Assembly (NCBI GenBank): GCA_902761345.1
Contig: CACWKD010000001.1
Coordinates: 1 to 55,977 of the forward strand
DNA from: an uncultured Ruminococcus sp.
GTDB taxonomy: Bacteria; Bacillota; Clostridia; Oscillospirales; Acutalibacteraceae
DNA length: 55,977 nt
Direction of reading: 5' to 3'
A program made the position numbers and the translations under genes. A model generated the notes under the pieces. It was not told where the DNA came from. It did no database searches and worked only from the letters and a program-made list of their open reading frames with translations. Positions 100 to 31,925 of this stretch are shown one piece after another (position 1 is the first letter of the stretch; every line of letters begins with the position of its first letter).

Positions 100-298
100 A
101 GTTCAAAGCTTATAGTCCAAAGTTCCGAGTATTAAGACCGGCTGCATAATTAACTCTCAACTATTTACTTTGGACTTTGAACTAACAACTCCAAACTCCA
201 CACTTTGAAAAACTCCATTCTCAACTATTCCACTTTCGACTTTGAGCTTTGAGCTTTAAACCAACAACTCCACTCTCCAAACTCCACACTTCCAAACG
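100..298 (-). repeat. Degenerate 7-base tandem repeat tract, downstream of ABC ATPase gene
   Basis: Between the gene end at 299 and about 100 the plus strand reads as drifting 7-mers of form ACTNNNA (ACTTTGG, ACTTTGA, ACTAACA, ACTCCAA, ACTCCAC, ACTTTGA and so on), with occasional phase slips. There is no open frame of note. On the sense strand of the preceding minus gene the unit reads TNNNAGT. Bases 1-99 show nothing I can name. Related tracts lie at 1021-1092, 17407-17520, 17585-17675 and 31845-31925. Confidence 0.7.
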
Positions 299-1003
299 CT
301 ACCACTCTATCTGTGACACATCAGTCGGGAACGGGTTTATTATATTGCTTATTACCTTACCGCTTTTCATTGTGATAACTCTGTCCGCCATAGGTGTAAT
401 TGCTTGATTATGAGTAATCAGTACAACTGTCATCTGCTCATCTTGGCAGGTATCCTGCAAAAGCTTTAATATCTGTTTGCCTGTATTGTAATCCAATGCG
501 CCTGTCGGCTCGTCACATAACAAAAGCTTTGGTTTTTTTGCAAGCGCTCTTGCAATAGATACTCTCTGCTGCTCACCGCCGGATAATTGTGAGGGAAAAT
601 TGTTTCTCCTGTCAAACAATCCCACACTGTCAAGCGCCTCGACTGCGTCCTTATGGTCTTTGCAAATCTGAGAGGCAAGCTCTACATTTTCCTTTGCTGT
701 AAGATTGGGTACAAGATTATAAAATTGAAAAACAAATCCTATATCGTACCTTCTGTAAGTGGCAAGGTCATGCTCGTCAAGGCGGCTTATATCCGTACCC
801 CCGACTATTATACTGCCCTCGTCACAGCTATCCATACCGCCCAAAATGTTTAGTACGGTCGTTTTGCCTGCACCGCTGCTGCCTACTATTACGGCAAACT
901 CGCCCTGCTCTATCTCAAATGAGATTCCGTCCACAGCAGTTATCATAACTTCTCCCATTTTGTAGCGTTTATATACGTTCTTAAAATCAACAAATGAACT
1001 CAC
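299..1003 (-). CDS. ABC transporter ATP-binding protein, LolD/MacB type, without visible permease
   Basis: A 234-residue cytoplasmic ATPase that would energise an FtsX/MacB-fold export or lipoprotein-type permease. It shows Walker A GSSGAGKTT near residue 42, the Q-loop region FQFYNLVPN, signature LSGGEQQRVS, Walker B LLLCDEPTGALD and the H-loop ITHNQ. The start is GTG at 1003, with AGGAGG spaced about 8 bases before it. Genes for this subfamily normally sit beside an FtsX/MacB permease, but none occurs on either side: repeats lie downstream and the phosphopantetheinyl transferase upstream. It may serve a permease elsewhere, or the permease lies beyond the left edge after a repeat-filled gap. 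Confidence 0.9.
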   Translation of the reverse strand: MSSFVDFKNVYKRYKMGEVMITAVDGISFEIEQGEFAVIVGSSGAGKTTVLNILGGMDSCDEGSIIVGGTDISRLDEHDLATYRRYDIGFVFQFYNLVPNLTAKENVELASQICKDHKDAVEALDSVGLFDRRNNFPSQLSGGEQQRVSIARALAKKPKLLLCDEPTGALDYNTGKQILKLLQDTCQDEQMTVVLITHNQAITPMADRVITMKSGKVISNIINPFPTDVSQIEW

Positions 1004-1020
1004 TGTTATACCTCCTGATA

Positions 1021-1092
1021 GTCACAAGTCCAAAATCACAAGTCCAAAGAATCACTCCAACTAACAACTAATAACTTTGAACTTACAACTAA
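1021..1092 (-). repeat. Degenerate 7-base tandem repeat tract, downstream of phosphopantetheinyl transferase gene
   Basis: The intergenic stretch carries ACTCCA, ACTAACA, ACTAATA, ACTTTGA, ACTTACA and ACTAATT on the plus strand, the same unit family and the same orientation relative to the upstream (minus) gene as at 100-298. It starts just after the ribosome binding site of the ABC ATPase gene. Confidence 0.65.
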
Positions 1093-1095
1093 TTC

Positions 1096-1650
1096 CTAAC
1101 TACATAAAAGATAGCACACCGCAAGCATATACTCTCCCATATTCTTCACATAATACATACCCTCACGGTTTGATATTCTGCCGTGTAACTCTCCGCTGAA
1201 ATTCTCCAAACGGAAATTTATCTTATCCATAGGAAATGACATTCCCTTGCCTATCGCTTTAATATAGCTTTCTTTAAGTGCCCACAAGGTTATGAAAGCC
1301 TTTTCTCTATTATCGCTCTCATTTACAAAACGCTTTTCTTCTTCATTGCACAGTTTTTCGATTAGTCCGTCTTTAACCGCTTTTACCTGCTGAATATCTA
1401 TTCCGACCTCATTTTCGGACAGAACTAACGCAACATACTCTCCGCTGTGGCTTATGTTAAAATGTATATCCGGTCTTTCTTCAAAGTACGGTTTCCCATA
1501 CTCGCCTGTTTTTATTGTAAGGATATCAAGGCTCACACCGTACTCCTGCTGTAAAGCTTTACGTAAAAGCTCTTTGCCGTTCTTTGTTTCGGCTTTCTTT
1601 TTTTCTCCTCGGATAAGTCCGGAATAATCGTATTTTTCTACATAAATCAT
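1096..1650 (-). CDS. 4'-phosphopantetheinyl transferase, Sfp type
   Basis: Transfers phosphopantetheine from CoA to a serine of acyl- or peptidyl-carrier proteins. At 184 residues it is near the lower end for the Sfp/AcpT group. Family landmarks are NISHSGEYVALVLS, the magnesium-binding GIDIQ, then FVNE and ALKESYIKAIGKG. ATG at 1650 is taken as the start; a TTG at 1656 in frame would overlap the rqcH stop by four bases. It follows rqcH directly and is probably cotranscribed. No polyketide or non-ribosomal peptide synthase gene is in the window, so its carrier substrate is unknown; it might serve fatty-acid synthesis or a distant cluster. Confidence 0.85.
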   Translation of the reverse strand: MIYVEKYDYSGLIRGEKKKAETKNGKELLRKALQQEYGVSLDILTIKTGEYGKPYFEERPDIHFNISHSGEYVALVLSENEVGIDIQQVKAVKDGLIEKLCNEEEKRFVNESDNREKAFITLWALKESYIKAIGKGMSFPMDKINFRLENFSGELHGRISNREGMYYVKNMGEYMLAVCYLLCS

Positions 1651-1652
1651 AA

Positions 1653-3392
1653 TCAAAACTCTATTGACGGCTTTACATACACCGTTCTGTTCTTTACAAA
1701 TATTACCATACCGGGCTTTGCTCCCTGCGGCTTGCTTACGTTTCTTATCTGAGTATAATCTACCGGCACCCCGGAGCTGTCCTTTGCCTTGCTGTGGAAA
1801 GCCGCTATCATAGCTGCCTGCATAATCGCTGTATCAGTAGGCTCTCTGCCCTCTGTTACAAGTATCGTGTGCGAACCGGGTATATCCTTCGTATGAAACC
1901 AAATATCATTATTGTTTGCTGTTTTAAGTGTAAGAGTATCGTTCTGCCTGTTATTTCTGCCGACAAGCACCCTGAATCCGTCTGTTGTCGTAAATTCTAT
2001 CGGCGGCAGCGGCTTTTGCTCCTTTGACTTACCCTTCGAGGCTTTTATATAACCCGTCTGCACAAGCTCCGCTCTGATTTCCGCAAGCTCCCTCTCACTC
2101 TCGGCACGGCTTAAAGCATCGAATACGTTATCTATATATATCAGCTCATTTTTTGCTATTTCTATCTGTTCTTTAAGAACCTGCTCGGCTGTTTTTGCCT
2201 TGCGGTAGTCCTTGTAATACTTTTGTGCATTTTGTGAACCGCTCTTTGATGGGTCAAGCTTAATTCTTACAACGGGCATATTTTCATCATAGAAATTTTC
2301 AAGATCTACAAACGGCGAGCCTTTTTCTATCCTGTACAAATTCGCCTGTATCAAATCGCCGTACACTCTGAGTTTCTCTCTGTCGGCACACTGTTCAAGC
2401 TCGGCAGACTGAGTATTTATCTTTCTTGAAAGGCGTTCTGCGGCATTTGTAAGAAGCTTTAGCAAATCCTGCCCCTTTACCTTCATTCTCTCGTCACGGT
2501 CACGTTCAAGATAAAAGCTGTCAAGCATATCCGAAAAGCTCTCGTGCCTTTTTACAGTCATCAAAGTACCGTACTGAGAAACAGCCATAAAACAAATATC
2601 CTTGTTTCTGCCCTTAGGCTCGCTTATCGAATACGGAACACCGCTGCCCTCTCTAACCTCTGAGGTAAGCTTTGTTATATAATATTCCAGACGTTTTTTA
2701 TACTGTGAGTCTATCTCGTCTGTGCAGACATCTTCGCCGCTTGTTATAAGATACTCTATCTCCCTGCAAACTATCGGTGACAGTCCCAACACGGTATTAA
2801 GTATAGCCTTATTAATTTTCTCGGGCTTCGGCTGTGATATTATCGCTTTTACTATTTCGCCCGGCTCGTGTGTAAGCATACTCAGTTTGCTTTGCGAGGG
2901 CGGCAGCTCATACTTCATCAGCGGCAAAACAAGCCTTTGCGTAGTCATTGTGGGATCAACACGCTTTAGTGCGTCTATTATTATACCGTCGCTGTCTATG
3001 AATATTACGTTGCTGTACTTACCCATTATTTCACAAGCAAGCGTAAGTCTGACATGATCGCCCAACTCGTTTGTTGCGTCAAAGTCTATGAATATTATCC
3101 TTTCAAGATCCGGCTGACGTACATCGGCTATCTTTGCTCCGCACAGTTTTTTTCTGAGCAGCATACAAAGCATAGGAGGTGAAGCAGGGTTTTCGGGGGC
3201 ATTCTCTGTAAAATTCACTCTCGGAGAATTTGCCCTTGCAGATATTAAAAGTTTTCTGTTGCCCGAAAGCGTTCTTAAAGCCAATATTAATTCATCTCTG
3301 TTAGGCTGATGTATCTGAGAAACTCTTGCCCCGACAAGCTCGCTTTTTAATTCTTTAGTTAAAAAACGTACAAAAGCTCCGTCAAGTGCCAT
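1653..3392 (-). CDS. rqcH: RqcH, ribosome quality control NFACT protein
   Basis: A 579-residue member of the Rqc2/NEMF/FbpA family, which binds obstructed 50S subunits and recruits tRNA-Ala to add C-terminal alanine tails. NFACT-N starts at MALDGAFVRFLTKEL, a helix-hairpin-helix and long coiled coil fill the middle (about 270-430), and NFACT-R is at the end (VLVGRNNRQND, DIWFHTKDIPGSH). The length is normal for Firmicutes. The tRNA-contacting Asp-Arg pair described in Bacillus appears here as Glu-Arg (DLERIIFIDF, near residue 95). The protein has often been annotated as fibronectin-binding; no signal peptide is present, which fits a ribosomal role. It heads a short operon with the phosphopantetheinyl transferase. 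Confidence 0.93.
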   Translation of the reverse strand: MALDGAFVRFLTKELKSELVGARVSQIHQPNRDELILALRTLSGNRKLLISARANSPRVNFTENAPENPASPPMLCMLLRKKLCGAKIADVRQPDLERIIFIDFDATNELGDHVRLTLACEIMGKYSNVIFIDSDGIIIDALKRVDPTMTTQRLVLPLMKYELPPSQSKLSMLTHEPGEIVKAIISQPKPEKINKAILNTVLGLSPIVCREIEYLITSGEDVCTDEIDSQYKKRLEYYITKLTSEVREGSGVPYSISEPKGRNKDICFMAVSQYGTLMTVKRHESFSDMLDSFYLERDRDERMKVKGQDLLKLLTNAAERLSRKINTQSAELEQCADREKLRVYGDLIQANLYRIEKGSPFVDLENFYDENMPVVRIKLDPSKSGSQNAQKYYKDYRKAKTAEQVLKEQIEIAKNELIYIDNVFDALSRAESERELAEIRAELVQTGYIKASKGKSKEQKPLPPIEFTTTDGFRVLVGRNNRQNDTLTLKTANNNDIWFHTKDIPGSHTILVTEGREPTDTAIMQAAMIAAFHSKAKDSSGVPVDYTQIRNVSKPQGAKPGMVIFVKNRTVYVKPSIEF

Positions 3393-3483
3393 TTTCTACC
3401 ACTCCTTAAACATAATCAAGCTTATTATACTACAAAATAATGAACAATTCCAGTGTAGTTGAGAATATACACATTTTTTATTA

Positions 3484-3512
3484 TTGACAGAAGTATTTTC
3501 CGAGATTATAAT
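3484..3512 (+). promoter_or_regulatory. Consensus sigma-A promoter for the 3544 gene
   Basis: TTGACA at 3484-3489, 17-base spacer, TATAAT at 3507-3512. The 12-base block holding the -10 (CGAGATTATAAT, 3501-3512) is repeated directly at 3513-3524, giving a second TATAAT downstream. Confidence 0.85.
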
Positions 3513-3543
3513 CGAGATTATAATATATATCGGAGGGAAATTT

Positions 3544-3936
3544 ATGAAGAAAAAACGTGTTATTATAATATCTTGTGTAATTGCATTCGTAATAATAGCC
3601 GTTATCGGGATACGACTGAACACAGGCATAAGCGATGATTATGCAGAAGTAAAGGCTACATTATCCCAGCGTACAGACTACACAAACCCGCAAAAGAACG
3701 ACAGTTCCGCATATCAAAGAGAGTATGTTTTCAAATACTATTATGACGGTATGGATTATTACAGCAAGGTCACGGTAGAAAACCCCGAAGATTTTCCGCT
3801 TAAAGTCGGCGATCAAACAACTATATTCGTAAATAAAACAAACCCAAAGAAAATCATTCTCCCTGATAAAAACGCTCCTTTTTCGTTCTTTGATTACGTT
3901 GTACGCTTTATCACAAGAGATAAAAAATACAGATAA
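3544..3936 (+). CDS. Small membrane-anchored protein, DUF3592-like
   Basis: A 130-residue protein with one N-terminal membrane helix (about residues 5-23, followed by RLNTG) and an outside domain of beta character (YVFKYYYDGMDYYSK, KVGDQTTIFVNKTNPKKI). The run of 'convert variable, then property of the field' resembles DUF3592-type small membrane proteins, but I cannot place it with certainty. ATG at 3544 is preceded by CGGAGG at good spacing, so an upstream in-frame start is not needed. It is monocistronic: a perfect promoter lies upstream and an intrinsic terminator follows the stop. Function unknown. Confidence 0.75.
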   Translation: MKKKRVIIISCVIAFVIIAVIGIRLNTGISDDYAEVKATLSQRTDYTNPQKNDSSAYQREYVFKYYYDGMDYYSKVTVENPEDFPLKVGDQTTIFVNKTNPKKIILPDKNAPFSFFDYVVRFITRDKKYR

Positions 3937-3942
3937 TGCAAA

Positions 3943-3980
3943 ACCGCTGTAACTTGTTTCAAAGTACAGCGGTATTTTTT
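3943..3980 (+). terminator. Bidirectional intrinsic terminator between convergent genes
   Basis: Nine-base stem ACCGCTGTA (3943-3951) with TACAGCGGT (3965-3973), followed by ATTTTTT on the plus strand. On the minus strand the stem is followed by TTTT, so it can also serve ymdB. Confidence 0.85.
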
Positions 3981-3985
3981 ATGTA

Positions 3986-4756
3986 TCACCTTACAGTAAA
4001 TCTTTCGGTCTTTACTGTAAGCCCTGTTTTATCTTGTATTTCAAACAACACACAGTCCATTTTACATTCCCCGTCCGCACTGTCAAACCTCACGGGCATT
4101 CTTGTTTTAAACTTTTCTATCGCTTTTTCCTTCTTAACACCGAGAACGGAATCCTCAACGCCCGTCATTCCAACGTCTGTGATATACCCCGTACCGTTCG
4201 GGAGTACCGTTTCATCTGCCGTGGGTATATGAGTATGCGTTCCGAAAACTGCAGAAACCTTACCGTCAAGATAAAATCCCATAGCACGTTTTTCGGAGGT
4301 AGCCTCTGCATGAAAATCAAGTATTCTTATTTTGCAGTCTTTTGTTTGTTCGAGTATCTCGTCTATCAGCTGAAACGGGTCGCCGAGCGGTTCGAGATAC
4401 ATTGTACCGAGAAGATTTATAACGCACACCTTATATCTTAACATATCTACAACCGTATATCCTCTGCCGGGTGTTCCTTTCGGATAATTGGCAGGGCGGA
4501 TAAGGCTCTCGCAGCTATCGTAATAATCATAGCTTTCATATCTTCCGAAAGCGTGATTGCCTGTTGTGATAACGTCTGCTCCGCTGTCAAATATACTCTG
4601 TGCCGTTTCGGGTGTAATTCCTTTGCCGTCAAATGAATTTTCTCCGTTTACAATAACAAAATCCACTCCGTACTCTCGCTTAAACTTAGGCAGAACACGT
4701 CTTAGATGTTTACAGCCGTTATCACCGCAAACGTCACCTATACATAATACTTTCAT
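3986..4756 (-). CDS. ymdB: YmdB-family metallophosphoesterase
   Basis: A 256-residue calcineurin-like phosphoesterase of the YmdB/TIGR00282 family, reported in Bacillus as a 2',3'-cyclic nucleotide phosphodiesterase affecting biofilm and RNA turnover. Metal-site motifs are all present: GDVCG (residue 7 on), NGEN (near 38), TGNHAFG (near 65), DFHAEATSEK (near 148) and GTHTHIPT (near 172). The length is standard. It follows the DUF1858 gene after a terminator hairpin and ends at the shared terminator. Unlike many Firmicutes, the neighbour is not rny. Confidence 0.92.
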   Translation of the reverse strand: MKVLCIGDVCGDNGCKHLRRVLPKFKREYGVDFVIVNGENSFDGKGITPETAQSIFDSGADVITTGNHAFGRYESYDYYDSCESLIRPANYPKGTPGRGYTVVDMLRYKVCVINLLGTMYLEPLGDPFQLIDEILEQTKDCKIRILDFHAEATSEKRAMGFYLDGKVSAVFGTHTHIPTADETVLPNGTGYITDVGMTGVEDSVLGVKKEKAIEKFKTRMPVRFDSADGECKMDCVLFEIQDKTGLTVKTERFTVR

Positions 4757-4777
4757 CTTTACTCTCCCTTAAAAAAA

Positions 4778-4809
4778 GCGGAACAAAACCTTATGAAAGC
4801 TTGTTCCGC
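4778..4809 (-). terminator. Intrinsic terminator downstream of DUF1858 gene
   Basis: Nine-base stem GCGGAACAA / TTGTTCCGC (4778-4786 with 4801-4809). On the minus strand it is followed by a run of seven T (4771-4777). It overlaps the leader of ymdB. Confidence 0.85.
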
Positions 4810-4818
4810 ATTTTTATA

Positions 4819-5025
4819 TTACTCAGCTTCGTTTGCAAGATACTCGTTTATCTCTGCAAGCACATCGTCTGCATTTAGACCGTGTACCATACAAGCCTCT
4901 TCGAGAGTTTCTCCGATTGATGACGGGCAACCTACACAGTGCATTCCGCAGCCCATAAGAACTACTGCAATTCCTCTGTTATACTCAAGCATTTCGCCCA
5001 TTGTTGTTTGTTTTGTTATTTCCAT
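4819..5025 (-). CDS. DUF1858 redox-disulfide domain protein
   Basis: A 68-residue single-domain protein of the DUF1858 family (hybrid-cluster-protein-associated disulfide domain). It contains the conserved Cys motif at residues 26-33 (CGMHCVGC), following the hydrophobic GIAVVLMG stretch. Homologues occur free or fused to hybrid cluster and redox proteins, so a thiol or metal redox role is inferred; the exact partner is unknown. It has its own terminator. The AT-rich upstream region (5040-5150) contains TATAAT-like sequences but no convincing -35. Confidence 0.88.
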   Translation of the reverse strand: MEITKQTTMGEMLEYNRGIAVVLMGCGMHCVGCPSSIGETLEEACMVHGLNADDVLAEINEYLANEAE

Positions 5026-5154
5026 TATATTTCTGTCCTTTCAAAATATTATTCAATATATTATTCAATTCAAACCAACACGATAGGTTTTATATTATTA
5101 TAACCCTATTCCACCAATAAATTGTGTACTATTCGTAAACAATTCGACATAAGT

Positions 5155-5637
5155 CTATTTATGATACTTTGTACCGCTGTTTATCGAAAACGCACGATAA
5201 ATCTGTTCGCACAACATTACCCTTGCAAGCTGGTGAGGAAACGTCATCTCCGACATCGACACCCTAAGGTCTGCTCGATTTTTAACTTCATCGGAAAGTC
5301 CCCAGCTGCCGCCTATCACAAAAGCCATACTGCTTATTCCCTTTACTCCGTTATCTGCAAATAGTTTTGCAAGCTGTTCGGAGGATTTTTGTTTACCCTC
5401 TATACACATTGCCGTTACAAATGTATCTGAGCTAATTTTCGAGAGTATTCTTTTTCCCTCGCTTGTGAGTATTTTTTCTATTTGTGTTTCGTTCGGATTA
5501 TCGTTAATTTTCTCCTCATCTACCTCAATTATCTCAAAACGACACATTGTCTGTAATCTTTTGGAATATTCCGACACAGCTTCACGCAGGTACTTCTCCT
5601 TTAGCTTTCCCACACAAATTATACTTATTCTCTGCAT
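5155..5637 (-). CDS. rlmH: RlmH, 23S rRNA pseudouridine-1915 N3-methyltransferase
   Basis: A SPOUT methyltransferase of 160 residues, the family norm, that methylates the pseudouridine at position 1915 of helix 69 in assembled 70S ribosomes. Diagnostic are the opening ISIICVGKLKEKY, the SAM-binding FVIGGSWGLSDEV and the knot-forming end PHQLARVMLCEQIYRAF..GTKYHK. ATG at 5637 with AGGTG just upstream is chosen over the TTG at 5649. The spacing to the preceding walJ stop is 8 bases, so the two are cotranscribed. Confidence 0.95.
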   Translation of the reverse strand: MQRISIICVGKLKEKYLREAVSEYSKRLQTMCRFEIIEVDEEKINDNPNETQIEKILTSEGKRILSKISSDTFVTAMCIEGKQKSSEQLAKLFADNGVKGISSMAFVIGGSWGLSDEVKNRADLRVSMSEMTFPHQLARVMLCEQIYRAFSINSGTKYHK

Positions 5638-5645
5638 ATCACACC

Positions 5646-6434
5646 TCAAAACAATACCGACTTGCCGTTTGTAACAACCGGCGCTACATCGAGAGTATAA
5701 TCAACATTTACATTCATTCCCTGCACCATAAGTTCGTTTAAAGCCTCTCTGTAAGCTATTTCGGGCATATTGTTCTCCTGACTTAAATGTGCAAGCACAA
5801 AACGTCTTGTTCCTTGTCTGACAAGCTTAGGCAAAAGTGCGGCACAAGCTTCGTTTGAGATATGCCCCTTATCCGATAATATACGTCTTTTCAAAGGATA
5901 AGGATACGGCCCTACCTGAAGCATTCTTACATCGTGGTTCGACTCTATCACAACAGTATCGCACCCTGTGAGCGCTTGTTCAACCTCATTTGAGATATAT
6001 CCCATATCGGTGGCAAGTGCAAATTTAGCCGTACCGAGGTCTATACGATACCCACACCCCTGCGCACAGTCATGTGAAATAGGAAACTTATCTATATGCA
6101 TATTACCAAGATCTACTCCGCCGCTGCCAATTATCCTGCAATCGGTTTTTTCATCTGCATAACCGTTCTTTTTCATCTCGTCATATGTACCTTTTGTGGA
6201 AAAAACAGGGATATGATATTTATTGGAAAACACTCTTACTCCGTTTACATGGTCGCTGTGTTCGTGTGTAACAAATATCGCACGGATAGTTTTAACGTCT
6301 ATATTGTTATCGATAAGAGCTTTTACAGTCTGTTTTGCACTCCTGCCGACATCTATAAGTATTCCCTCGCCTCCGCTCGACAAATAATAACTGTTTCCCT
6401 TGCTGCCGCTAAACAGCGGAATAAGCTTTGACAT
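5646..6434 (-). CDS. walJ: WalJ/YycJ metallo-beta-lactamase-fold hydrolase
   Basis: A 262-residue cytoplasmic MBL-fold protein, the YycJ/WalJ type usually placed in the walRK operon and linked to coordination of division with replication. It opens IPLFSGSKGNSYYL, carries the metal motif THEHSDHVNG (near residue 56) and ends with LAHLSQENN. Here it is outside any walRK operon and sits between murA and rlmH. ATG at 6434 is preferred to the TTG at 6473, because upstream codons lie in the hairpin-containing leader. Confidence 0.9.
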   Translation of the reverse strand: MSKLIPLFSGSKGNSYYLSSGGEGILIDVGRSAKQTVKALIDNNIDVKTIRAIFVTHEHSDHVNGVRVFSNKYHIPVFSTKGTYDEMKKNGYADEKTDCRIIGSGGVDLGNMHIDKFPISHDCAQGCGYRIDLGTAKFALATDMGYISNEVEQALTGCDTVVIESNHDVRMLQVGPYPYPLKRRILSDKGHISNEACAALLPKLVRQGTRRFVLAHLSQENNMPEIAYREALNELMVQGMNVNVDYTLDVAPVVTNGKSVLF

Positions 6435-6517: not shown

Positions 6518-6527
6518 AAATATTATA

Positions 6528-16050: not shown

Positions 16051-17406
16051 ATGACAAGTTCATTTTCCAAAAGGGTGACGGTAAGGATAATTTCTTTTTC
16101 AGCGGCAGCCGCTTTACTTCTTGCAGGCGCAGGTATGGGCGGTTACAAGATGATGTCACGATACAGGGACAGCTCCGAATACCGCTATCAGCTTGCTCTC
16201 AACAACCTATCCGACTACGTTTCCAACATCAAAACATCTCTTGAAAAAAGTCTATACTCCAACACCCCCGCACAGCAGCAGCCTATTTTTGCAAAGCTTA
16301 TGACTATGAGCGAGGGTGCTAAAAACTCACTCAGCCAACTGCCTATCAGCGGCGAACAGGCTGTATCTATACAAAAATACTTGGCTCAGGTGGGAGATTA
16401 CTCTTTCTACGCATTATCAAAAATTGCTAAAAACAACAAGCTGTCACCTGACGAAACAGATAATCTGAAAACATTCTACGATTATGCTTGTGAGCTTGAT
16501 ACATCTATCGGCGATCTTGCTGCGGCATACGGTGACGGCTCTGTAAAATTAGGTTCAGCCGTATCTCTGAAAGGCAACATTTCCTCGATAGGAGAAAAAG
16601 CAGACGATCTTACCCTTGACGGCGGTTTTCGTGAGATGAGTGAGGGATTTACGGATTACCCGACTATGATCTATGACGGGCCTTTCTCAGACCACATCGA
16701 ACAGCAAAAGCCTAAACTTCTCAAAGACGAACAGCAGATCAGTATGGAACAAGCTTTAACCGTAGCTGCAAAATTTATAGGCTGTAACGAAAATGAGTTG
16801 AGCTTTACGGGAAAAACCGAGGGTAATTTGCCTACCTATAACTTTGCGGGCGATAACATCTATATAACCGTAACTCAAAAAGGCGGCTTTGTAGTGCTGT
16901 ATAATAACTATTCGGATATTGCAAAAACTACGCTTGCGTACGATGACGCACTTAAAGAGGCAAAAAAACTTCTTCTTAATATTACAAAAGAAAACTTTGC
17001 CGAAAGCTACTATTCCTTTGAAAACAACATTTGTACAATCAACTTTGCATACACGCAAAACGATACTATCTATTACAGCGATCTTATTAAAGTAGGCGTA
17101 AGTATGCAGACGGGCGAAATTGTAAGCTATTGTGCGTCCGGTTATATTATGAACCACACCAAACGTGAACTTTCCACACCTACTCTCTCCCCCGATGAAG
17201 CGCAAAATTCTTTAAGCGATAAGCTTAAAGTACAGTCGTGTAAGCTTGCACTTATCCCAACAGCAGGAAAAAACGAAGTCCTCACCTATGAATTTAACTG
17301 TACGGCAGGGGAAGAAACCGTTCTTGTTTATATTAACTGCGACACGGGTCTTGAAGAACAGCTTTATATTGTAATCACGGACGATAATGGGGTTTTGGTT
17401 GTGTAG
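16051..17406 (+). CDS. ypeB: YpeB-like germination protein
   Basis: A 451-residue homologue of YpeB, which in Bacillus spores stabilises and localises the cortex-lytic enzyme SleB. One N-terminal membrane helix (about 12-30) precedes a long helical N-domain; the family hallmark FTDYPTMIYDGPFSDHIEQQKP is near residue 203, followed by PepSY-type repeats (QALTVAAKFIG, YDDALKEAKKLL, SPDEAQNSL). ATG behind GAAAGGGG. The usual partner sleB is not adjacent, so it must be elsewhere or replaced. A candidate sigma-G promoter precedes the gene. Its presence argues that the organism forms spores. Confidence 0.9.
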   Translation: MTSSFSKRVTVRIISFSAAAALLLAGAGMGGYKMMSRYRDSSEYRYQLALNNLSDYVSNIKTSLEKSLYSNTPAQQQPIFAKLMTMSEGAKNSLSQLPISGEQAVSIQKYLAQVGDYSFYALSKIAKNNKLSPDETDNLKTFYDYACELDTSIGDLAAAYGDGSVKLGSAVSLKGNISSIGEKADDLTLDGGFREMSEGFTDYPTMIYDGPFSDHIEQQKPKLLKDEQQISMEQALTVAAKFIGCNENELSFTGKTEGNLPTYNFAGDNIYITVTQKGGFVVLYNNYSDIAKTTLAYDDALKEAKKLLLNITKENFAESYYSFENNICTINFAYTQNDTIYYSDLIKVGVSMQTGEIVSYCASGYIMNHTKRELSTPTLSPDEAQNSLSDKLKVQSCKLALIPTAGKNEVLTYEFNCTAGEETVLVYINCDTGLEEQLYIVITDDNGVLVV

Positions 17407-17520
17407 AGCTTTTTTTGAGTGTGGAGTTTGGAGAGTGGAGTGTGGAGTTTTTTGGAGTTAGGAGTTGGGAGTTAGTTTTAGTTCAAAGTTCATAGTTCAT
17501 AGTAGATAGTTCCAAAAAAT
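17407..17520 (+). repeat. Degenerate 7-base tandem repeat tract, downstream of ypeB
   Basis: Directly after the ypeB stop the plus strand reads GTGTGGA, GTTTGGA, GAGTGGA, GTGTGGA, then GTTAGGA, GTTGGGA, and GTTCAAA, GTTCATA, GTTCATA, GTAGATA, GTTCC. This is the complement of the ACTNNNA units seen after minus-strand genes, so the orientation relative to the gene is the same. Confidence 0.75.
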
Positions 17521-17531: not shown

Positions 17532-17565
17532 AAAAAAAGCCTCCGCTAATTGCAGAGGTTTTTTA
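17532..17565 (+). terminator. Bidirectional terminator between ypeB and 17678 gene
   Basis: A-rich flank, stem CCTC(C)GC / GC(A)GAGG with loop TAATT, then a T tract at 17559-17564. A-tract and T-tract symmetry lets it work in both directions. It sits between two oppositely oriented heptamer tracts. Confidence 0.75.
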
Positions 17566-17584: not shown

Positions 17585-17675
17585 ACTCCAAAGCTTAAAA
17601 TACATCTCTATACTATGAACTTTGGACTAATAACTTATAACTAAATTCTATCAACTATAATCTTTGAACTAACAG
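17585..17675 (-). repeat. Degenerate 7-base tandem repeat tract, downstream of the 17678 gene
   Basis: The plus strand reads ACTATGA, ACTTTGG, ACTAATA, ACTTATA, ACTAAAT, TCTATCA, ACTATAA, TCTTTGA, ACTAACA up to the stop of the minus-strand gene at 17678. Confidence 0.75.
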
Positions 17676-17677
17676 CC

Positions 17678-25198: not shown

Positions 25199-26383
25199 TC
25201 AATCCTCACCGAAAATCTGCATTATCTCATAGAAAGTATCCTCTTCATCAAGCTTTTTTGATGACTCGGGCGGAGTCTGCTTCGGTCTGTTTGCGTTTAC
25301 ATTTGTATTTACCTCAACCGTTCTTCGCTGCGGCTCATTTGAGGAAAGGTCCTTTGAAAAAGACGGCTTAGGCTTAGCCACAGCATTATTAGGGCGGGCA
25401 ACAGGCTTTACAACATTGCCATGCTCATCGCCAAAACCCGTAGCGATAACAGTTACACGAAGCTCATCTTCAAGTGTTTCGTCAATAACAGCACCCCAGA
25501 TGATGTTTGCGTCCTCATCTGCCTGCTCTGTTATCATTGATGAAGCTATATCGATCTCGTCAAGACCAATATCGGGTGACGCTGTAATATTAACAACAAG
25601 ACCCTTTGCACCCTGAATAGTTGTTTCAAGAAGCGGTGAGCTGATAGCTTTCTGAGCTGCCTCTGCTGCCTTATCCTTACCTGTTGCAACTCCGACGCCC
25701 ATGTGTGCAAGACCCGCATTCTGCATTACTGCTGTTACATCTGCAAAGTCAAGGTTTACAAGTCCCGGAATAAGAATAAGATCCGAAATACTCTGCACAC
25801 CCTGTCTAAGAACATCGTCTGCTATCTCAAAAGCGTTTGTGAGAGTAATTTTCTCTGTACTTACATTTTTAAGTTTTTCGTTAGGTACAATTACAAGCGA
25901 ATCAACATACTGCTTTAATTCCTCAATACCTGCCTCTGCCTGCTGCATACGGCGTTTGCCCTCAAAACCAAACGGCTTAGTAACTATTGCTACTGTAAGT
26001 ATGCCCATAGCTCTTGCAATTTTTGCTACGATAGGAGCTGCACCCGTACCTGTACCGCCGCCCATTCCGGCAGTGATAAACACCATATCTGTATCCTTGA
26101 GAGCCTCTTCTATTTCTTCGGCACTCTCAATTGCTGCTTTCTCGCCTATTGCAGGCTGTGAACCTGCTCCCTTACCGTGTGTCAGCTTTGCACCAATATG
26201 AATTGTCTGATCTGCCTTTGATGACTGCAAAACATGATCATCTGTATTTATTGATATGAACTCTACGGACTTAACCTCACTGTTTACCATTCTGTTGACA
26301 GCGTTTCCGCCGCCTCCGCCAACACCTATTACCTTTATAACAGGAAGGTTGCCGTTATACTCTTCTTCCAACTGAAAAGCCAT
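25199..26383 (-). CDS. ftsZ: Cell division protein FtsZ
   Basis: A 394-residue tubulin-like GTPase that forms the Z-ring. The tubulin signature is GGGTGTG at 108-114; VGVGGGGGNAVNRM and INTDDHVL are near the start, and the T7 loop is NLDFADVTAVM. After residue 320 comes a proline/lysine-containing linker and the end DEEDTFYEIMQIFGED. The usual conserved tail peptide (acidic, then IPxFL, then basic residues) that binds FtsA, SepF or ZipA is not obvious: the end is acidic without the basic finish. ftsA is absent from the neighbourhood. It is separated from ftsQ by 280 bases, so it likely has its own promoter. Confidence 0.97.
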   Translation of the reverse strand: MAFQLEEEYNGNLPVIKVIGVGGGGGNAVNRMVNSEVKSVEFISINTDDHVLQSSKADQTIHIGAKLTHGKGAGSQPAIGEKAAIESAEEIEEALKDTDMVFITAGMGGGTGTGAAPIVAKIARAMGILTVAIVTKPFGFEGKRRMQQAEAGIEELKQYVDSLVIVPNEKLKNVSTEKITLTNAFEIADDVLRQGVQSISDLILIPGLVNLDFADVTAVMQNAGLAHMGVGVATGKDKAAEAAQKAISSPLLETTIQGAKGLVVNITASPDIGLDEIDIASSMITEQADEDANIIWGAVIDETLEDELRVTVIATGFGDEHGNVVKPVARPNNAVAKPKPSFSKDLSSNEPQRRTVEVNTNVNANRPKQTPPESSKKLDEEDTFYEIMQIFGED

Positions 26384-26572
26384 TTTTATATTCCTCCTAA
26401 CGTGTAATCACCGAAATTTACGATCCTTTATTTCGATCTGTCCGTATAATAAAACTATACTCTTTGCTACTATATAAATTTATCACATTTACACGGAAAT
26501 TTCAATAATAATTTATTAATTAAGAAATTTTCGACATATCGCTTAAAAAATTACACTGTTTTTATACAAAAA

Positions 26573-26586
26573 TTACAATATTGTAA
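26573..26586. promoter_or_regulatory. 14-base perfect palindrome between ftsQ and ftsZ
   Basis: TTACAATATTGTAA, a complete dyad, in the AT-rich 280-base spacer upstream of ftsZ. A weak TTGAAA-17-TAAATT promoter for ftsZ is possible at 26477-26505. A regulator site is inferred from symmetry only. Confidence 0.35.
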
Positions 26587-26663
26587 CAAAGATCGTTCTT
26601 TTCTTGAAGTTTAAAAAACATCTCGTTACTTTTTTTTTATAATTTATAAACTCTATTATACTA

Positions 26664-27974
26664 TTAATAGTAGTTTGTTCCATACTCTCCCGTAATATTC
26701 TCATCGGGTTCTTCTTCATCGTAATAATAATCCTCTTCATCATACGGTTCGGTTTCTTCGCTTGACGTACTGCTGTCTGCCGAGGAAGTCGCCTTTCTCA
26801 CACCTGTTGTCGGAGCTGTGTATTCCTCTTCGCTTGATGATTCGGTTGTCTGTGAAGAAGTAACCTTACTCTCTGTCGACACTGTATTTGAATATATCGG
26901 TGTAAAGTACGATGCTTTTCTGTCGCCGTTTGACAGCGATACATCAAGATCTCCCTTGTCGTTCGGGGCAAGCTGAGTATTAATTATTGCCATAGCAGTT
27001 CTCAGCTTATAGCCAACGTCCTCGGGCAATCCTATCAAAATAGTTATCCTGTTATCGTAATTAAGCTTTATACTTGCGGCATTTGAAATATCTATTCCAT
27101 AGATAAGCGGAACTTCATTTTCATTAATATTAGCTATTACCTCATCGAGTATCTGCTGAGTTGTGGCTTTCTCAAAGCTTATGTATTTACCCACCTCTGT
27201 ATCGGTAACCTTTAAGCCCTTTAAAAGAGGTATTGTGGAAAGCTGACTTTCGTTTATCTCCAAAACTCTGCCCTTTTCGCTGATTATCGCATATCCGCCG
27301 TTTACAGCTACCTCGTATGACGGTATTGCAGGTTCAACTCGTATTACCTGAGTGGCAGGAATTTTAAACGTAATTTCTGCGTCCTCTATATACGGGAGAT
27401 TATCGACAATATTCTTAACCGCTGCCTTTTTCCTCGCTGAGAAAATATTGCCGTGAAGCTTTAGACCGCTTTTTTCTATTATAACGCTGTCGCTGTACGG
27501 TGTGCCGTTTGCGTTCTCAACTACTATTTCATTAGTCTTAAACAAAACATTGAACGACAAAATTACCGCTACGCCTACTATCACAAAAAATGCAATATAG
27601 TTTTTTATGCGTGTTCTTTTCTTTCTCTGAGAGCCTGTAAGCTCCTTTGGCTTAGGTGTATCCTTGTAGTAACTTCGTTCTCTTCTCTCTGAACTTCTCG
27701 TTTTATTTCTTTGTTTTTCTGTACGTTCTTTTTCTCTTCTCGGAGAATCTACATACCCGTATCGTGAGCTGAAATAATCGTCGGGCTGAGATTTTGTTTG
27801 CGAGGGTTCACTAAAATTTGCAAACCTGTCAAAAGATGTGTATTCATTATTATTTTCGGAAACATCTCTGTATCTTCTGCGTTCTCTGTCCGCATTAGTT
27901 CTATTTGAAGATCTTGTACTGCGGCTTTTTTGTTTATTTCTGTTTTCCTTTTCTTTTCCTTTTTCTCTGCTCAC
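26664..27974 (-). CDS. divIB: Cell division protein FtsQ/DivIB
   Basis: A 436-residue bitopic divisome protein that joins FtsL and FtsB in activating septal wall synthesis. A very basic, disordered N-terminal segment of about 120 residues precedes one membrane helix (125-145), then POTRA (NEIVVENANGTPYSDSVIIEKSG) and FtsQ beta domain (LPYIEDAEITFKIPATQVIRVEPAIPSYEVAVNGGYAII, split over 192-231). The C-terminal 65 residues are Ser/Thr, then Glu/Asp/Tyr rich (EETEPYDEEDYYYDEEEPD). Both extensions are longer than in most homologues. It is last gene of the mraZ-led dcw run. Confidence 0.88.
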   Translation of the reverse strand: MSREKGKEKENRNKQKSRSTRSSNRTNADRERRRYRDVSENNNEYTSFDRFANFSEPSQTKSQPDDYFSSRYGYVDSPRREKERTEKQRNKTRSSERRERSYYKDTPKPKELTGSQRKKRTRIKNYIAFFVIVGVAVILSFNVLFKTNEIVVENANGTPYSDSVIIEKSGLKLHGNIFSARKKAAVKNIVDNLPYIEDAEITFKIPATQVIRVEPAIPSYEVAVNGGYAIISEKGRVLEINESQLSTIPLLKGLKVTDTEVGKYISFEKATTQQILDEVIANINENEVPLIYGIDISNAASIKLNYDNRITILIGLPEDVGYKLRTAMAIINTQLAPNDKGDLDVSLSNGDRKASYFTPIYSNTVSTESKVTSSQTTESSSEEEYTAPTTGVRKATSSADSSTSSEETEPYDEEDYYYDEEEPDENITGEYGTNYY

Positions 27975-27991
27975 GCCGTCACTTCCTTCCG

Positions 27992-29254
27992 TTACACACG
28001 CCTGACATCTCCTCCAAGGGTACTCAGCGTTACTTCAATATCCTCATATCCTCTGTCCAGATATTTTAGTCCGTCTACCGTCGTTTTTCCCTCTGCTCCA
28101 AGACCTGCCGTGATCAGTGCAGCCGCACCTCTCAGATCCATTGCCGCAACCTCGGCACCGTGCATACACTCAACGCCCTGCGATACAGCAACTCTGCCCT
28201 CTACTTTAATATTTGCGCCCATTTGCAAAAGTCCGCTGACATGGAGATACCTGTTTTCAAAAATATTCTCCACAAAAAGCGTTGTTCCACGGCTTTTGGC
28301 TATCATCGCCATTATCGGCGCCTGTGCGTCTGTCGGAAAACCCGGATACGGCATAGTACGCACTATTTTAGGCGCTGTAAGCCTGTGAGGACTATCCATT
28401 ATAATACTGCTGCCCTGTATATCCACATCACAGCCGCACTCCTCAAAAATAGAAAGCACTGCTCGCAGATGTGAGGGAATAGTTCGATTAAGCTTTATTC
28501 TGCCGCCGGTAGACGCACAACAGGAAAGCAGCGTTGCCGCAACTATTCTGTCGGGGATTATCGAATGTCTTGTACCGTGGAGTTTCTCAACACCCTCGAT
28601 AATTATTGTTCCCTCGCCCGCACCTGAGATTTTAGCTCCGCTGCTGTTGAGATAATCAGCAAGATCACATATTTCGGGTTCTCGTGCAGCGTTTGTAATT
28701 ACTGTCGTACCCTCTGCAAGGCTTGCGCAGATCATTATGTTTTCCGTTGCGCCCACACTCGGAAACGACAAAGAAATATTTGCCCCATGCAGTCCGTTCG
28801 GAGCTGTACACTTAAACACTCCGTGATCGTCCTTTATCTCTGCGCCAAGCTCAGACAATGCTTTCAGATGAAGATCTATCGGGCGAGGACCTATCTCACA
28901 GCCTCCCGGAAAACACATTCCGGCGTTACCTGTTCGTGCAAGCAATGCTCCGAGAAAAATTATAGATGACCTCATCTCACGCATAAGCGAATTAGGTATG
29001 TTTGTTCTGCATAGATTTCGGCTGTCACAAACAAGCGTACCGTCCGAGAAGCTGACGCTGCACCCTAAGTACCTCAGTATATTTACAGAGCCGCTTACAT
29101 CTGACAAATCGGGGCAGTTATGTAAAATGCTTTCCTCTCCGCTGAGGAGTGTCGCCGCAAGAATAGGTAAAGCAGAGTTTTTAGAGCCTTGGACGGCTGT
29201 TTCTCCCCGAAGTCTTTTCATACCGTCTATAATAAGACGTGACAAATACAACAC
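27992..29254 (-). CDS. murA: UDP-N-acetylglucosamine 1-carboxyvinyltransferase (MurA, second copy)
   Basis: A MurA paralogue of about 420 residues inside the dcw cluster. It has the opening LIIDGMKRLRGETAVQGSKNSALPILAA, the catalytic-loop Cys in CFPGGCEIGPRPIDLHLKALSELG and the late PYPGFPTDAQAP. Compared with the 6528 copy, its loop is the more canonical (GGCEIGPRPID against GGCSFCERPID). The start is non-ATG: GTG 29254, or TTG 29245, which has better spacing from AGAGG. The gene is 17 bases upstream of divIB and clearly cotranscribed. Confidence 0.93.
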   Translation of the reverse strand: MLYLSRLIIDGMKRLRGETAVQGSKNSALPILAATLLSGEESILHNCPDLSDVSGSVNILRYLGCSVSFSDGTLVCDSRNLCRTNIPNSLMREMRSSIIFLGALLARTGNAGMCFPGGCEIGPRPIDLHLKALSELGAEIKDDHGVFKCTAPNGLHGANISLSFPSVGATENIMICASLAEGTTVITNAAREPEICDLADYLNSSGAKISGAGEGTIIIEGVEKLHGTRHSIIPDRIVAATLLSCCASTGGRIKLNRTIPSHLRAVLSIFEECGCDVDIQGSSIIMDSPHRLTAPKIVRTMPYPGFPTDAQAPIMAMIAKSRGTTLFVENIFENRYLHVSGLLQMGANIKVEGRVAVSQGVECMHGAEVAAMDLRGAAALITAGLGAEGKTTVDGLKYLDRGYEDIEVTLSTLGGDVRRV

Positions 29255-29421
29255 CCTCTTTTATTGTTTTATTGCATACAATTTAGTTTTGAGAGTAAGC
29301 AGTTTTATATTTCAGCGGTTTCTATACTTCCCACCAACCAAAACACAGTAAACTCTAAGCTCTGAAAAGCCAAAAATTATATACACTAAATCTTATGCTG
29401 TATTTGTCGGTTCTGACACTA

Positions 29422-30549
29422 TTATTTTTTATATTTCTCGTAAGTTTCGTTAATTATTTTATAAATTCTTTCATTGGCGTCTAAGATTGCCATTTTCTTT
29501 GCATTAGCGGAATACTCGGCAAGCCTTTTCTTATCGCTTACTATCTTATCTACTTTCTCTGTCAGCAGTTCGCCCGAAAGCTCGCTTTCCTCTATTATCT
29601 CGCCTGCCTTTTGATTAACAAGCGCCATAGCGTTATGGTACTGATGATTTTCGGCAACATTCGGTGACGGAATAAACACCGCAGGTTTACCCTGAGCCTG
29701 TATCTCGCTTATTGTTATTGCGCCTGCACGGCATACTACAACATCAGCCGCCGCAAGACAAGTAGGCATATTGTCTATATATTCCCTTATGTCAAGATTT
29801 TTGCACTGTGTAATATCAGTACCCTTCTCCTTAACAAGATCGGGAAACCAATGTCCGTACTGTCCGTATGCGTGTATATGCTGATACTTGCCGTCCTTGC
29901 CGCTTCTTGCTATTATATCCGCACAAGCCTCGTTTACTTTCTGCGCTCCAAGGCTGCCTCCGAACGACAACACAACGGGTCTTTCGTCAAGCCCAAGTTT
30001 CTTTCTTGACTCCTCTCTGTCGGCAGTTATTATCTCTGTTCTTACAGGGTTGCCCGTAACGACAAAATTACAGCCCTCTTTCATATGCTTCTGTGCGTCT
30101 GCTATTGCAAGCATAACAACCTCTGCTTTTTTGGATAGCATTTTATTTGCAACACCCGGAAAAGCATTCTGCTCGTGAATAAGTATCGGAATACCAAGCT
30201 CAGTTGCCGCACGAAGTACGGGGCCGCTTACATACCCGCCCGTGCCTACGCATAGATCGGGTTTAAATTCCTTTATTATCTTCTTGCTTGCCGATATTGC
30301 GGTTACAGCTCTTGAAAGCGTCTGAATATTCGCCTTAATAGCGGCAGGCTTCATACTTCTCTTAAATCCGCTTACCCTTATCGACTTAAACTCAAAGCCT
30401 GCCTTTGGCACAAGCTTTTCCTCCATACCGCCCTTGTTTCCTACATAAAGTATTTCTGTATCGGGCTGTTTGCTCTTCAGATAGCCTGCAATCGCCAAAG
30501 CAGGGTTTATATGTCCTGCTGTTCCGCCTCCTGCAAATATAACTCTCAT
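29422..30549 (-). CDS. murG: MurG, lipid II synthase
   Basis: A 375-residue GT28 glycosyltransferase on the inner membrane face, adding GlcNAc to lipid I. The N-terminal GGGTAGHINPALAIAGYL, HEQNAFPGVANKML, the hinge region SFGGSLGAQKVNE and VVCRAGAITISEIQAQGKPAVFIPSP match the family; length typical. ATG at 30549 follows AGAGGGA. The 167 bases after its stop, before murA2, contain no recognisable site. Confidence 0.97.
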   Translation of the reverse strand: MRVIFAGGGTAGHINPALAIAGYLKSKQPDTEILYVGNKGGMEEKLVPKAGFEFKSIRVSGFKRSMKPAAIKANIQTLSRAVTAISASKKIIKEFKPDLCVGTGGYVSGPVLRAATELGIPILIHEQNAFPGVANKMLSKKAEVVMLAIADAQKHMKEGCNFVVTGNPVRTEIITADREESRKKLGLDERPVVLSFGGSLGAQKVNEACADIIARSGKDGKYQHIHAYGQYGHWFPDLVKEKGTDITQCKNLDIREYIDNMPTCLAAADVVVCRAGAITISEIQAQGKPAVFIPSPNVAENHQYHNAMALVNQKAGEIIEESELSGELLTEKVDKIVSDKKRLAEYSANAKKMAILDANERIYKIINETYEKYKK

Positions 30550-30575
30550 TTTTTTATCCCTCTTTCGCTTGTGTT

Positions 30576-31820
30576 TTACTCCTTTGCTATATTGGCGGAG
30601 CGTGAAATGTTAAGCACTATACCCATTTGGGCAAGCAGTACGATCATCGACGATCCTCCATAGCTGAAAAATGGCAAACTGATACCTGTATTAGGAAGCC
30701 AGTCTGTTATTACAAGTACATTAAGTACCACTTGAAGTCCGATTTGTGCCATTAGTCCAACGCCTAACAGCCTGCCAAACATATCCTTAGCCTGCTTACA
30801 TATCGTTACTCCTCTGTAAACAAGCAGACCAAATATCGCAAGCACTACAAACGCTCCGATAAGTCCAAGCTCCTCGCAGACAATTGCAAATACAAAGTCG
30901 TTCTGAGGTTCGGGAAGATACAGGTACTTTTGTCTTGACTGACCAAGCCCCAAGCCCCACAATCCGCCTGAGCCTATCGCATACAGTGAATTTCTCGTCT
31001 GCCACGTTGTCTGCCACATTTCGTTGGTAGTGTATTCGAGCGCCTGACCCCAGCCGTCCATTCGGCTCATAGCATATGTAAGCTTTCCCGTTACAGCCAG
31101 CAGCAGCACAAGTACGCCTACAATGCCTCCTGCCATAAAGAAGTATTTAATCGGCATTCCGCCGATATACAGCATAACCGCAACAATAAGGATACATATA
31201 ACTATACCGGAATAGTGCGGTTCAAGATAAAGCAGCAGTCCCGTTACACCGAGTACCACGAACGCAGGCGCAACACCGTATTTCAGAGTTTTCATCTCTT
31301 TATAGTACAAAGAACACCAATGCGCAAAAAACAATATGAGGGCAAACTTACATATCTCAGACGCCTGAATACTGAATATTCCTAAATTCAGCCAGCGTTT
31401 CGGGGCATTGTCCTCTGTCGGTATCATAAGTACTAATATCATAAGAAGCCACGCAGCGCCCATTACAGGTGCAGCCGCCTTATGAAGATAATGATAATCA
31501 AAAAACGATACTCCAAACATTATCGCTAAACCCGCCAGGGCAAACAATACCTGTTTTTTTATAAAGTAATAGCTGTCGCCGTATCTGTGGTAGGCATACG
31601 GATAGCTTGCGGAGAACATCATTATCAGACCGATTATAAGTATTAATACCAAAAGTCCCAGAAACGGCAGATCCAACCCTTCGCCTATCGAAAACAGCTT
31701 GAACTTCTTTTTGATACGGGGACGTCTGTTCATAGGGAACGGCTTTTTTTGTACTTCTGTTTTTTTCTTTTTTTCTTCGGAAAAGTTATCCATATAACTG
31801 TCCAAATAGCTTTGCAGCAA
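30576..31820 (-). CDS. ftsW: SEDS peptidoglycan polymerase FtsW/SpoVE
   Basis: A 414-residue, ten-helix SEDS glycosyltransferase that polymerises lipid II at the septum together with its cognate class B PBP. A basic, Lys-rich cytoplasmic N-terminus of about 45 residues precedes helix 1. Family motifs: FSASYPYAYHRYGDSYYF, APKRWLNLGIFSIQASEICKFA, then PEPQNDFVFAIVCEELGLIG and SLPFFSYGGSSM. Start TTG at 31820, eight bases after GGGGGAG. By context it could be called ftsW or spoVE. Confidence 0.93.
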   Translation of the reverse strand: MLQSYLDSYMDNFSEEKKKKTEVQKKPFPMNRRPRIKKKFKLFSIGEGLDLPFLGLLVLILIIGLIMMFSASYPYAYHRYGDSYYFIKKQVLFALAGLAIMFGVSFFDYHYLHKAAAPVMGAAWLLMILVLMIPTEDNAPKRWLNLGIFSIQASEICKFALILFFAHWCSLYYKEMKTLKYGVAPAFVVLGVTGLLLYLEPHYSGIVICILIVAVMLYIGGMPIKYFFMAGGIVGVLVLLLAVTGKLTYAMSRMDGWGQALEYTTNEMWQTTWQTRNSLYAIGSGGLWGLGLGQSRQKYLYLPEPQNDFVFAIVCEELGLIGAFVVLAIFGLLVYRGVTICKQAKDMFGRLLGVGLMAQIGLQVVLNVLVITDWLPNTGISLPFFSYGGSSMIVLLAQMGIVLNISRSANIAKE

Positions 31821-31844
31821 TAAAATCTCCCCCTTTTATTTAGT

Positions 31845-31925
31845 TAGGAATTTGGAGTTGAGAGTAAATTCTTTACTATAAACTTTAAACAATAAGCTAC
31901 CAACTATGAACTACTCCGATCAATC
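31845..31925 (-). repeat. Degenerate 7-base tandem repeat tract between mraY and ftsW
   Basis: The plus strand has AATTTGGAGTTGAGAGTA and then ACTATAA, ACTTTAA, ACAATAA, GCTACCA, ACTATGA, ACTACTC up to the mraY stop. The short first part is inverted relative to the rest, so a hairpin is possible. This is the only tract located inside a long operon. Confidence 0.6.

Follow-up and report, generated by a model that had tools for sequence, protein, structure and literature searches.

Why should five intergenic tracts in one stretch of bacterial DNA be built from drifting 7-base units, and why do they lie next to the stop codons of genes? The stretch analysed here, referred to as the window, covers 55,977 bases of contig CACWKD010000001.1 from an uncultured Ruminococcus sp., whose assembly comprises 2,086,853 bases in 99 contigs. 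A 770-residue protein encoded in the window has its nearest named relatives in metagenome-assembled genomes (MAGs) of uncultured Clostridiales and Ruminococcus, with 94% to RUG122. The tracts (100-298, 1021-1092, 17407-17520, 17585-17675 and 31845-31925) were originally predicted to follow a stop codon always in the same sense, and were proposed to be either a transcribed element of the 3' untranslated region (3'-UTR) or a repeat spread by strand-dependent slippage. Here we argue that they are probably whole or partial arms of short, non-autonomous, dispersed elements of the miniature inverted-repeat transposable element (MITE) or foldback kind, which would have multiplied in a Ruminococcus-like lineage.

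Period-7 tracts in the window and in the host genome

The periodicity of the five tracts is real, as had been predicted. Self-match at a lag of 7 bases is 0.49-0.60 in all of them, compared to 0.18-0.36 at lags 1-6 and 8, and a lag-7 scan of the window (70-base window, match of at least 0.5) flags the same five regions and no other. The genome-wide check proposed with the prediction was carried out on a sample of 636,049 bases in 25 contigs, about 30% of the host assembly, made up of the window and a further 580 kb; batch one of the sample consisted of contigs C2-C5 and C14 and batch two of contigs chosen for pattern matches. Tracts were called by a cyclic 7-state hidden Markov model (HMM) reading both senses and trained on the same sequence that was counted, segments below 14 bases and intergenic gaps below 20 bases being discarded, and genes (548) were called solely by our own codon-score caller. 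On C1-C5, that is 235,977 bases exclusive of batch two, 41 segments were found, making up 1.03% of the bases, as against none in one reversed copy and none in one second-order Markov shuffle; the sample as a whole held 128. Over the 636 kb, both batches included, runs per 100 kb numbered 13.4 at lag 7, 0.6 at lag 5, 2.5 at lag 6 and 0.5 at lag 8, with 7.5 at lag 14 and 4.6 at lag 12. The pattern (AGTTNNN)2AGTT occurs in the host assembly 161 times forward and 138 times reverse, and its backward control 46 times, a control that is not independent since the arrays also hold TTGA words. In the unit profile of the model, four well kept positions (A.96, G.93, T.83, T.79) are followed by three loose ones, and 946 of the 1289 model units, a total that includes partial end units, are exactly 7 bases long.

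Inverted arms and ordered units

The units are organized in arms of opposite sense. In the 53 pairs of neighbouring segments at most 120 bases apart, 43 run plus then minus, six minus then plus, two plus-plus and two minus-minus; in other words, an AGTTNNN arm precedes an NNNAACT arm in 43 of the 49 opposite-sense pairs. One of the 43 is the window pair 17413/17589, the arms of which differ in age, while four of the six minus-then-plus pairs, 71-109 bases apart, were read as two adjacent elements. Counted by region, a plus-then-minus pair was present in 41 of the 65 intergenic regions holding tracts, a single arm in 22, and a plus-plus and a minus-plus arrangement in one each. Within the arms, different words follow each other from the outside to the inside in a typical order, namely AGTGTGG, AGTTTGG and AGAGTGG, then AGTTAGG types, then AGTTRTT and lastly AGTTCAA types. 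For the 15 words that we classed, to which the count was limited, unit pairs in this order and in the opposite order numbered 63:0 for AGG before CAA, 32:1 for AGG before RTT, 151:8 for TGG before CAA, 133:7 for TGG before AGG, 70:9 for TGG before RTT and 138:39 for RTT before CAA; counted per arm, the same comparisons gave 22:0, 13:1, 24:1, 24:0, 16:2 and 36:11, respectively.

A hairpin module, GGAAAGCCTNCGGCTTT, was seen 21 times in the sample, close variants counted, often with an array of TGAATAN heptamers before it and an AGTT arm after it, and neighbouring copies give rise to larger direct repeats at C3:12674/12851, C5:17486/17682 and C14:4763/5019. Folding was assessed on 33 two-armed elements, those with non-adjoining arms, a length above 300 bases or any arm of 25 bases or less having been dropped. 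The mean folding z was -3.8 (range -9.9 to +1.1), and many of the elements could fold as RNA.

Several heptamer elements (C50:37130-37632 (L101), C3:12632-13255, L263 and L269) harbour a nested second short repeat, whose ends resemble TTCAGACYGTGCAAAAA ... TTTTTGCACRGTCTG and some copies of which have an inner palindrome CTCCCTCAGTCAGCTACGCTGACAGC. A possible further small inverted-repeat element, with ends CTACAACTTAAG ... CTTAAGTTGTGGACA, was noticed at C50:24939-25227 (L101) and in the relative G015 (L198).

A subset bounded by terminal inverted repeats

Some two-armed tracts sit within elements that end in TATAGTARACGNCAT. The host has 26 matches to this end motif, and 10 complete copies were delimited by strict ends; like MITEs, these have terminal inverted repeats (TIRs) at fixed ends, are non-coding and are short, their 143-443 bases being too few for a usual transposase gene. 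A called tract is present in seven of the 10 and in none of the copies of 143, 158 and 196 bases, and the number of units ranges from no called array to about 30. A T precedes TATAG in 8 of the 10 copies and an A follows CTATA in 8 of the 10, flanks that are compatible with a TA-type target. The end motif was found in 15 of 22 genomes of the genus, G015 not being among them. Of the five complete copies among 20 MITE pieces from G007, G005, G013 and G001, one from G007 (189 bases) has AGCTCAA-type arms within it, the second G007 copy and the one from G013 contain shorter heptamer runs, and those from G005 and G001 contain no such array. Several one-ended G007 pieces carry AGTGTGG-type units just within the end, and two pieces do not carry such an array. 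In the course of events that we favor, element copies would be inserted by a transposase, the arms would afterwards gain and lose length through slippage, 7 bases at a step, and selection would spare the copies at the 3' ends of genes, which may be the site where they are best tolerated.

Probable length change in seven-base steps

Indels between element copies, counted over 645 aligned pairs that are not independent (alignments below 60 bases or 70% identity were left out), show a local peak of 67 at 7 bases, compared to 28 at 6 and 19 at 8. Three types of copy share the exact centre TTAGAYAAATRTTACT, with left arms of 4, 32 and 101 bases and right arms of 14, 49 and 126 bases, and the 4/14 type was found at five loci. 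All three right-arm lengths are divisible by 7 without remainder, and the left-arm lengths leave 4, 4 and 3. Expansions in single copies were also seen, for instance AGTTCTA repeated four times at C5:27189 and, at C25, a higher-order repeat of 35 bases (5x7).

These steps and expansions, together with the heptamer excess described for other bacteria in passages of PMC4692102, might suggest that every tract grew in place as a microsatellite, by 7-base slippage at its own locus and with no mobile element involved. The tracts do have the head-to-tail 7-base unit of heptamer short tandemly repeated repetitive (STRR) sequences and microsatellites, but not near-identical units arisen in place, as three of the seven positions are loose and ordered sets of different words recur across loci. 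We consider growth in place doubtful as a full explanation, since an identical ordered set of different words is found at unrelated loci, the arms are paired inversely, and outer-arm matches of 79-100% over about 30-70 bases are listed in further genomes of the genus, 20 such sites from six genomes having been inspected as excerpts. An equally doubtful idea, prompted by how well the A and G of the unit are kept, is that a host or element function recognizes AGTT at every seventh position, so that arms would be copied or trimmed heptamer by heptamer while the other three bases drift. If true, such a counting process would turn the MITE into a vehicle by which heptamer arrays are seeded along chromosomes, and it could be a missing link for the heptamer repeats of unrelated bacteria.

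Occurrence in related genomes

With the model trained on the host, no HMM segment was called in G003 (60 kb), G008 (40 kb), G010 (40 kb) and G019 (60 kb), two were called in G021 (60 kb), and one each in G006 (20 kb), G015 (55 kb, with none in another 17 kb) and G027 (60 kb), the last being of the same order and a different family. Word-free lag-7 runs, at 13.4 per 100 kb in the host, came in small samples to 5.0 each in G003 and G008, 1.8 in G015 and 1.7 in G021, and to zero in G010, G027, G019 and G006. From these low counts the host looks unusual even within its genus. A four-unit pattern was matched by 6 of 40 searched genomes, the host counted, and some relatives carry other last three bases (AGTTGAG, AGTTAGT, AGTTTTC). 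Of 391 genomes sampled from the class, two carry the outer module GTGTGGAGTKTGGAGAGTGGAG (the host and G291), and of 199 from the phylum one (the host) carries a slightly looser form of it.

In G015, the closest relative compared, an HMM tract is present in 2 of the 16 syntenic regions that hold tracts in the host (seven on C50, four on C5, four on C3 and one on C1). The comparison covered C50:20001-37962, C5:1-20000 and C3:1-20000, where C5:17462 is the only one of 15 regions with a called tract in G015, and the C1 region. Relatives therefore differ in the presence and absence of heptamer tracts generally, a polymorphism that is not one of the TIR-bounded subset alone. The cleanest difference, 265 bases in the host versus 3 in G015, is at C50:34183-34447; most of the other compared sites have a different spacer in G015 and no bare site.

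Several further occurrences were noted. AGTGTGG arrays are present in G291 (L201, L202), which belongs to a different family of the class; one of these arrays apparently lies a few bases past a stop codon, with a possible hairpin after it. G015 has at C129:8000-8400 (L199) a long 14-base (2x7) array CATTCTATACTCAY that grades into ATTCACT/ATTCATT heptamers. The outer module is also present in two viral contigs, by eye at a gene junction in each; these contigs, L204 (about 477) and L205 (about 2843-2864), with G+C of 0.65 and 0.34, carry AGTGTGGAGTTTGGAGAGTGGAG at the apparent junction. Six more contigs matched a simpler word and appear by eye to be plain repeats lacking the ordered module. Window positions 17405-17465 gave no match at E 0.01 in named plasmid or phage records, a weak negative as the low-complexity filter of BLAST was on.

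Sense and position relative to genes

The original prediction held that the unit always has the same sense relative to the preceding gene. Between tandem genes, 32 segments share the sense of the gene upstream and 30 oppose it (binomial p 0.90), the very balance that the prediction had named as contrary to it, and in the window itself tracts 100-298 (AGT 4, ACT 16) and 31845-31925 (AGT 2, ACT 5) each hold both senses. Where the nearer gene end is a stop the segment is sense in 62 of 86 cases, and where it is a start it is antisense in 25 of 34, as predicted by the AGTT-then-AACT symmetry. Sense is a by-product of element symmetry and, being balanced overall with a local bias that follows the inverted-repeat anatomy, is no evidence for a 3'-UTR signal; what endures, in part, of the proposed interpretation is the spreading repeat with 7-base length change. 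The case also serves as a warning that the strand bias of a repeat towards its nearest gene can arise from symmetry and location alone.

Adjacency to stops had likewise been claimed as invariable, and it is a real tendency but no rule. For the five tracts as first delimited, every tract end lies at most 5 bases from the stop end of a gene in our gene calls. In the sample, 28 of the 80 gene 3' ends facing a tract are within 10 bases of it, compared to 19% expected by random placement (p 0.0008), and at 15 of these 28 the called array extends up to or over the stop codon; for 5' ends the figure is 2 of 50 against 10% expected (p 0.23). Only 4 of the 128 tracts lie more than half within a called gene. 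Of the intergenic regions, 21 of the 53 between convergent genes contained a tract, as did 38 of the 287 between tandem and 6 of the 58 between divergent genes; convergent regions stood out from the rest (Fisher p 8e-6), and divergent and tandem ones did not differ (p 0.67). The location bias is real, and tolerance or target preference fits it as well as function does. Since 7 is not divisible by 3, stops occur in all six frames of AGTTGTT/AGTTATT, AGTTAGG or AGTTCAT arrays, and many insertions at gene ends would therefore just provide a new stop; AGTTCAA and AGCTCAA arrays have stops on one strand only and AGTGTGG arrays on neither.

Could the tracts form a 3'-UTR element that is transcribed and under selection for a role in RNA stability, termination or protein binding? 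The enrichment between convergent genes, the closeness to 3' ends and the hairpin potential are what it would lead one to expect, but the even sense and antisense counts between tandem genes, the divergent regions that bear tracts about as often as tandem ones, and the 14 of 16 matching G015 regions without an HMM tract make this improbable. A search of Rfam at gathering score, over the window and L068, L093 and L101 (113,939 bases), returned two matches, a tRNA and an rRNA end, neither of them inside a tract.

Weight of the evidence

Several observations count against the view that the tracts are arms of MITE-like elements. One-armed tracts are common (22 of the 65 regions), and folding is not better than that of shuffles throughout, z being positive in 2 of the 33 elements. 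Indels of 1-5 bases (470, 214, 148, 73 and 39) are commoner than those of 7, and with relaxed anchors five copies left residues of 6, 4, 5, 4 and 1 modulo 7, so that a uniform residue was not found. The TATAGTARACGNCAT ends are absent from all five window tracts, and thus the link of these tracts to the MITE subset, to which they may be akin, rests on shared arm modules and word order. At the cleanest filled and empty site, C50:34183, no target-site duplication is evident by eye. Beside the MITE ends at 20 loci no transposase was detected: 10 proteins came from seven of the loci, eight belonging to other families and two unmatched, while the scan excluded open reading frames (ORFs) of at least 90 codons in L299, L301, L302 and L305, and the remaining nine loci are short contig-end pieces without ORFs of at least 90 codons. 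As many MITE ends are near contig ends, an intact longer element would probably be lost in assembly. Finally, some G015 alleles keep short AGTT-like words, possible relics, and so the difference from the host may partly be loss in G015 and not gain in the host.

Two other origins are more remote. A telomere-like copying activity might add 7-base units to DNA ends that are then joined head to head, in keeping with the G-richer strand that points to the centre (43:6), the lack of evident duplication at the cleanest site and the widely varying arm lengths; it is very unlikely, given that ordered different words and shared centres indicate copied elements. Least likely of all are elements of the repetitive extragenic palindromic (REP) or REPIN type moved by a REP-associated tyrosine transposase (RAYT) of the Y1 kind, for although the elements are short, palindromic, extragenic and of high copy number and the host has two Y1_Tnp matches, one with internal stops, such matches occur in only 4 of the 22 genus genomes (three above cut-off), a distribution that rules out RAYT as a general mover, there is none in G003, G006, G007 and G013, all of which have related arrays, and the open Y1 gene of the host at C2:31458 is about 3.7 kb from the nearest called tract. 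The two host matches are at C74:4054-4410, with two in-frame stops, and at C2:31458-31826, without stops.

Relation to known repeats

Heptamer repeats are already known, and so is a tandem array inside a MITE. Cyanobacterial STRRs and the GGGNATC repeats of Xanthomonas and Nostoc are heptamer arrays. In the passages of PMC4692102 that deal with the latter, over-representation in non-coding DNA, variable unit number and one inverted example are reported, and a DNA-polymerase-footprint idea is quoted for the growth of 7-base repeats. Our tracts are likewise variable-number arrays enriched in non-coding DNA, but they have an ordered word programme and a TIR-bounded carrier, neither of which is mentioned for GGGNATC in those passages. 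The BrickBuilt element of Porphyromonas gingivalis, as described in part of PMC4596501, is a minisatellite with a 23-base unit within a MITE; it resembles the present elements as a multicopy, intergenic tandem array inside a small inverted-repeat element, while these differ in their loose 7-base units, two inverted ordered arms, another phylum and the many tracts without MITE ends. TAACTGA heptamers, according to sections of PMC4679880, form intergenic arrays in Beggiatoaceae, Cyanobacteria and Bacteroidetes with transfer suspected, differ between two close Cyanothece strains by indels of mostly 7-base increments and are mixed with other heptamers in Microcystis; in the best-studied Beggiatoaceae genome related heptamers seldom form direct repeats, and their sets mostly lie just upstream of starts. 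Intergenic heptamer arrays, a common AACT word and 7-base length steps are shared with the present tracts, in which, unlike those repeats, only AGTT/AACT is kept, arms are paired inversely and 3' ends are favored, placement within 10 bases being seen at 2 of 50 gene 5' ends compared to 28 of 80 3' ends. REPINs, mobilized by RAYT, are, from portions of PMC3116915 and PMC3733652, small, palindromic, extragenic mobile DNA as well, but here a consistent Y1 transposase association was not found (4 of 22 genus genomes). Among the matches listed in the mainly open-access literature on heptamer repeats (those of Clostridia and Ruminococcus included), STRRs, small mobile repeats and MITEs with internal tandem arrays, no description was recognized as this element, and no paper was listed for MITEs of Ruminococcus.

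An excess of intergenic heptamers in bacteria has been noted without a settled origin in the parts of PMC4692102 and PMC4679880 consulted. Arrays of zero to about 30 units inside an element with defined ends, along with scattered ordered arms, make that origin testable, as the growth of arrays can be followed between fixed anchors and their spread deduced from empty sites.

Tracts of the window

Downstream of the minus-strand gene 299-1003 lies an element with a short plus-sense AGTTNNN arm at 96-141 (HMM score 17) and a long minus-sense arm at 142-295, which is separated by 3 bases from the gene end at 299 and has outer AGTGTGG AGTTTGG AGAGTGG followed by inner units. As a second AGTGTGG AGTTTGG block is inside it, the long arm is probably nested or duplicated; the folding z of the element is -4.4. 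The next tract is a single minus-sense arm of about five units at 1056-1092, with 3 bases between it and the gene end at 1096 and a degenerate continuation at 1021-1055 that has a few AGT/ACT words.

The tracts at 17407 and 17585 had been taken as mirror images flanking a shared terminator. Between gene 16051-17406 (ypeB is a label from the original prediction only) and the terminator there is a long outer-to-inner plus-sense arm, 17413-17512, reading AGTGTGG AGTTTGG AGAGTGG AGTGTGG, AGTTTTTTGG, AGTTAGG AGTTGGG and AGTTCAA AGTTCAT. The terminator itself, recognized by eye as an intrinsic terminator-like hairpin with a T-run at 17532-17564, has a counterpart in G015 and is a host feature outside the element. 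Beyond the terminator, the minus-sense arm at 17589-17676 is matched by an orthologous arm in G015 (77% over a 185-base alignment including the arm), with a small plus-sense arm adjacent, whereas no array is present in G015 between the upstream gene and the terminator; the two arms thus differ in age, the 17589 arm being the older, and did not originate as one unit.

The last tract is a small two-armed element, 31839-31914, made of a short plus-sense arm at 31839-31865 and its minus-sense partner at 31866-31914, with a folding z of -1.5. The corresponding site in RUG122 (L069) is about 28 bases long and holds no tract, and that in RUG080 (L070) has a different tract together with other sequence.

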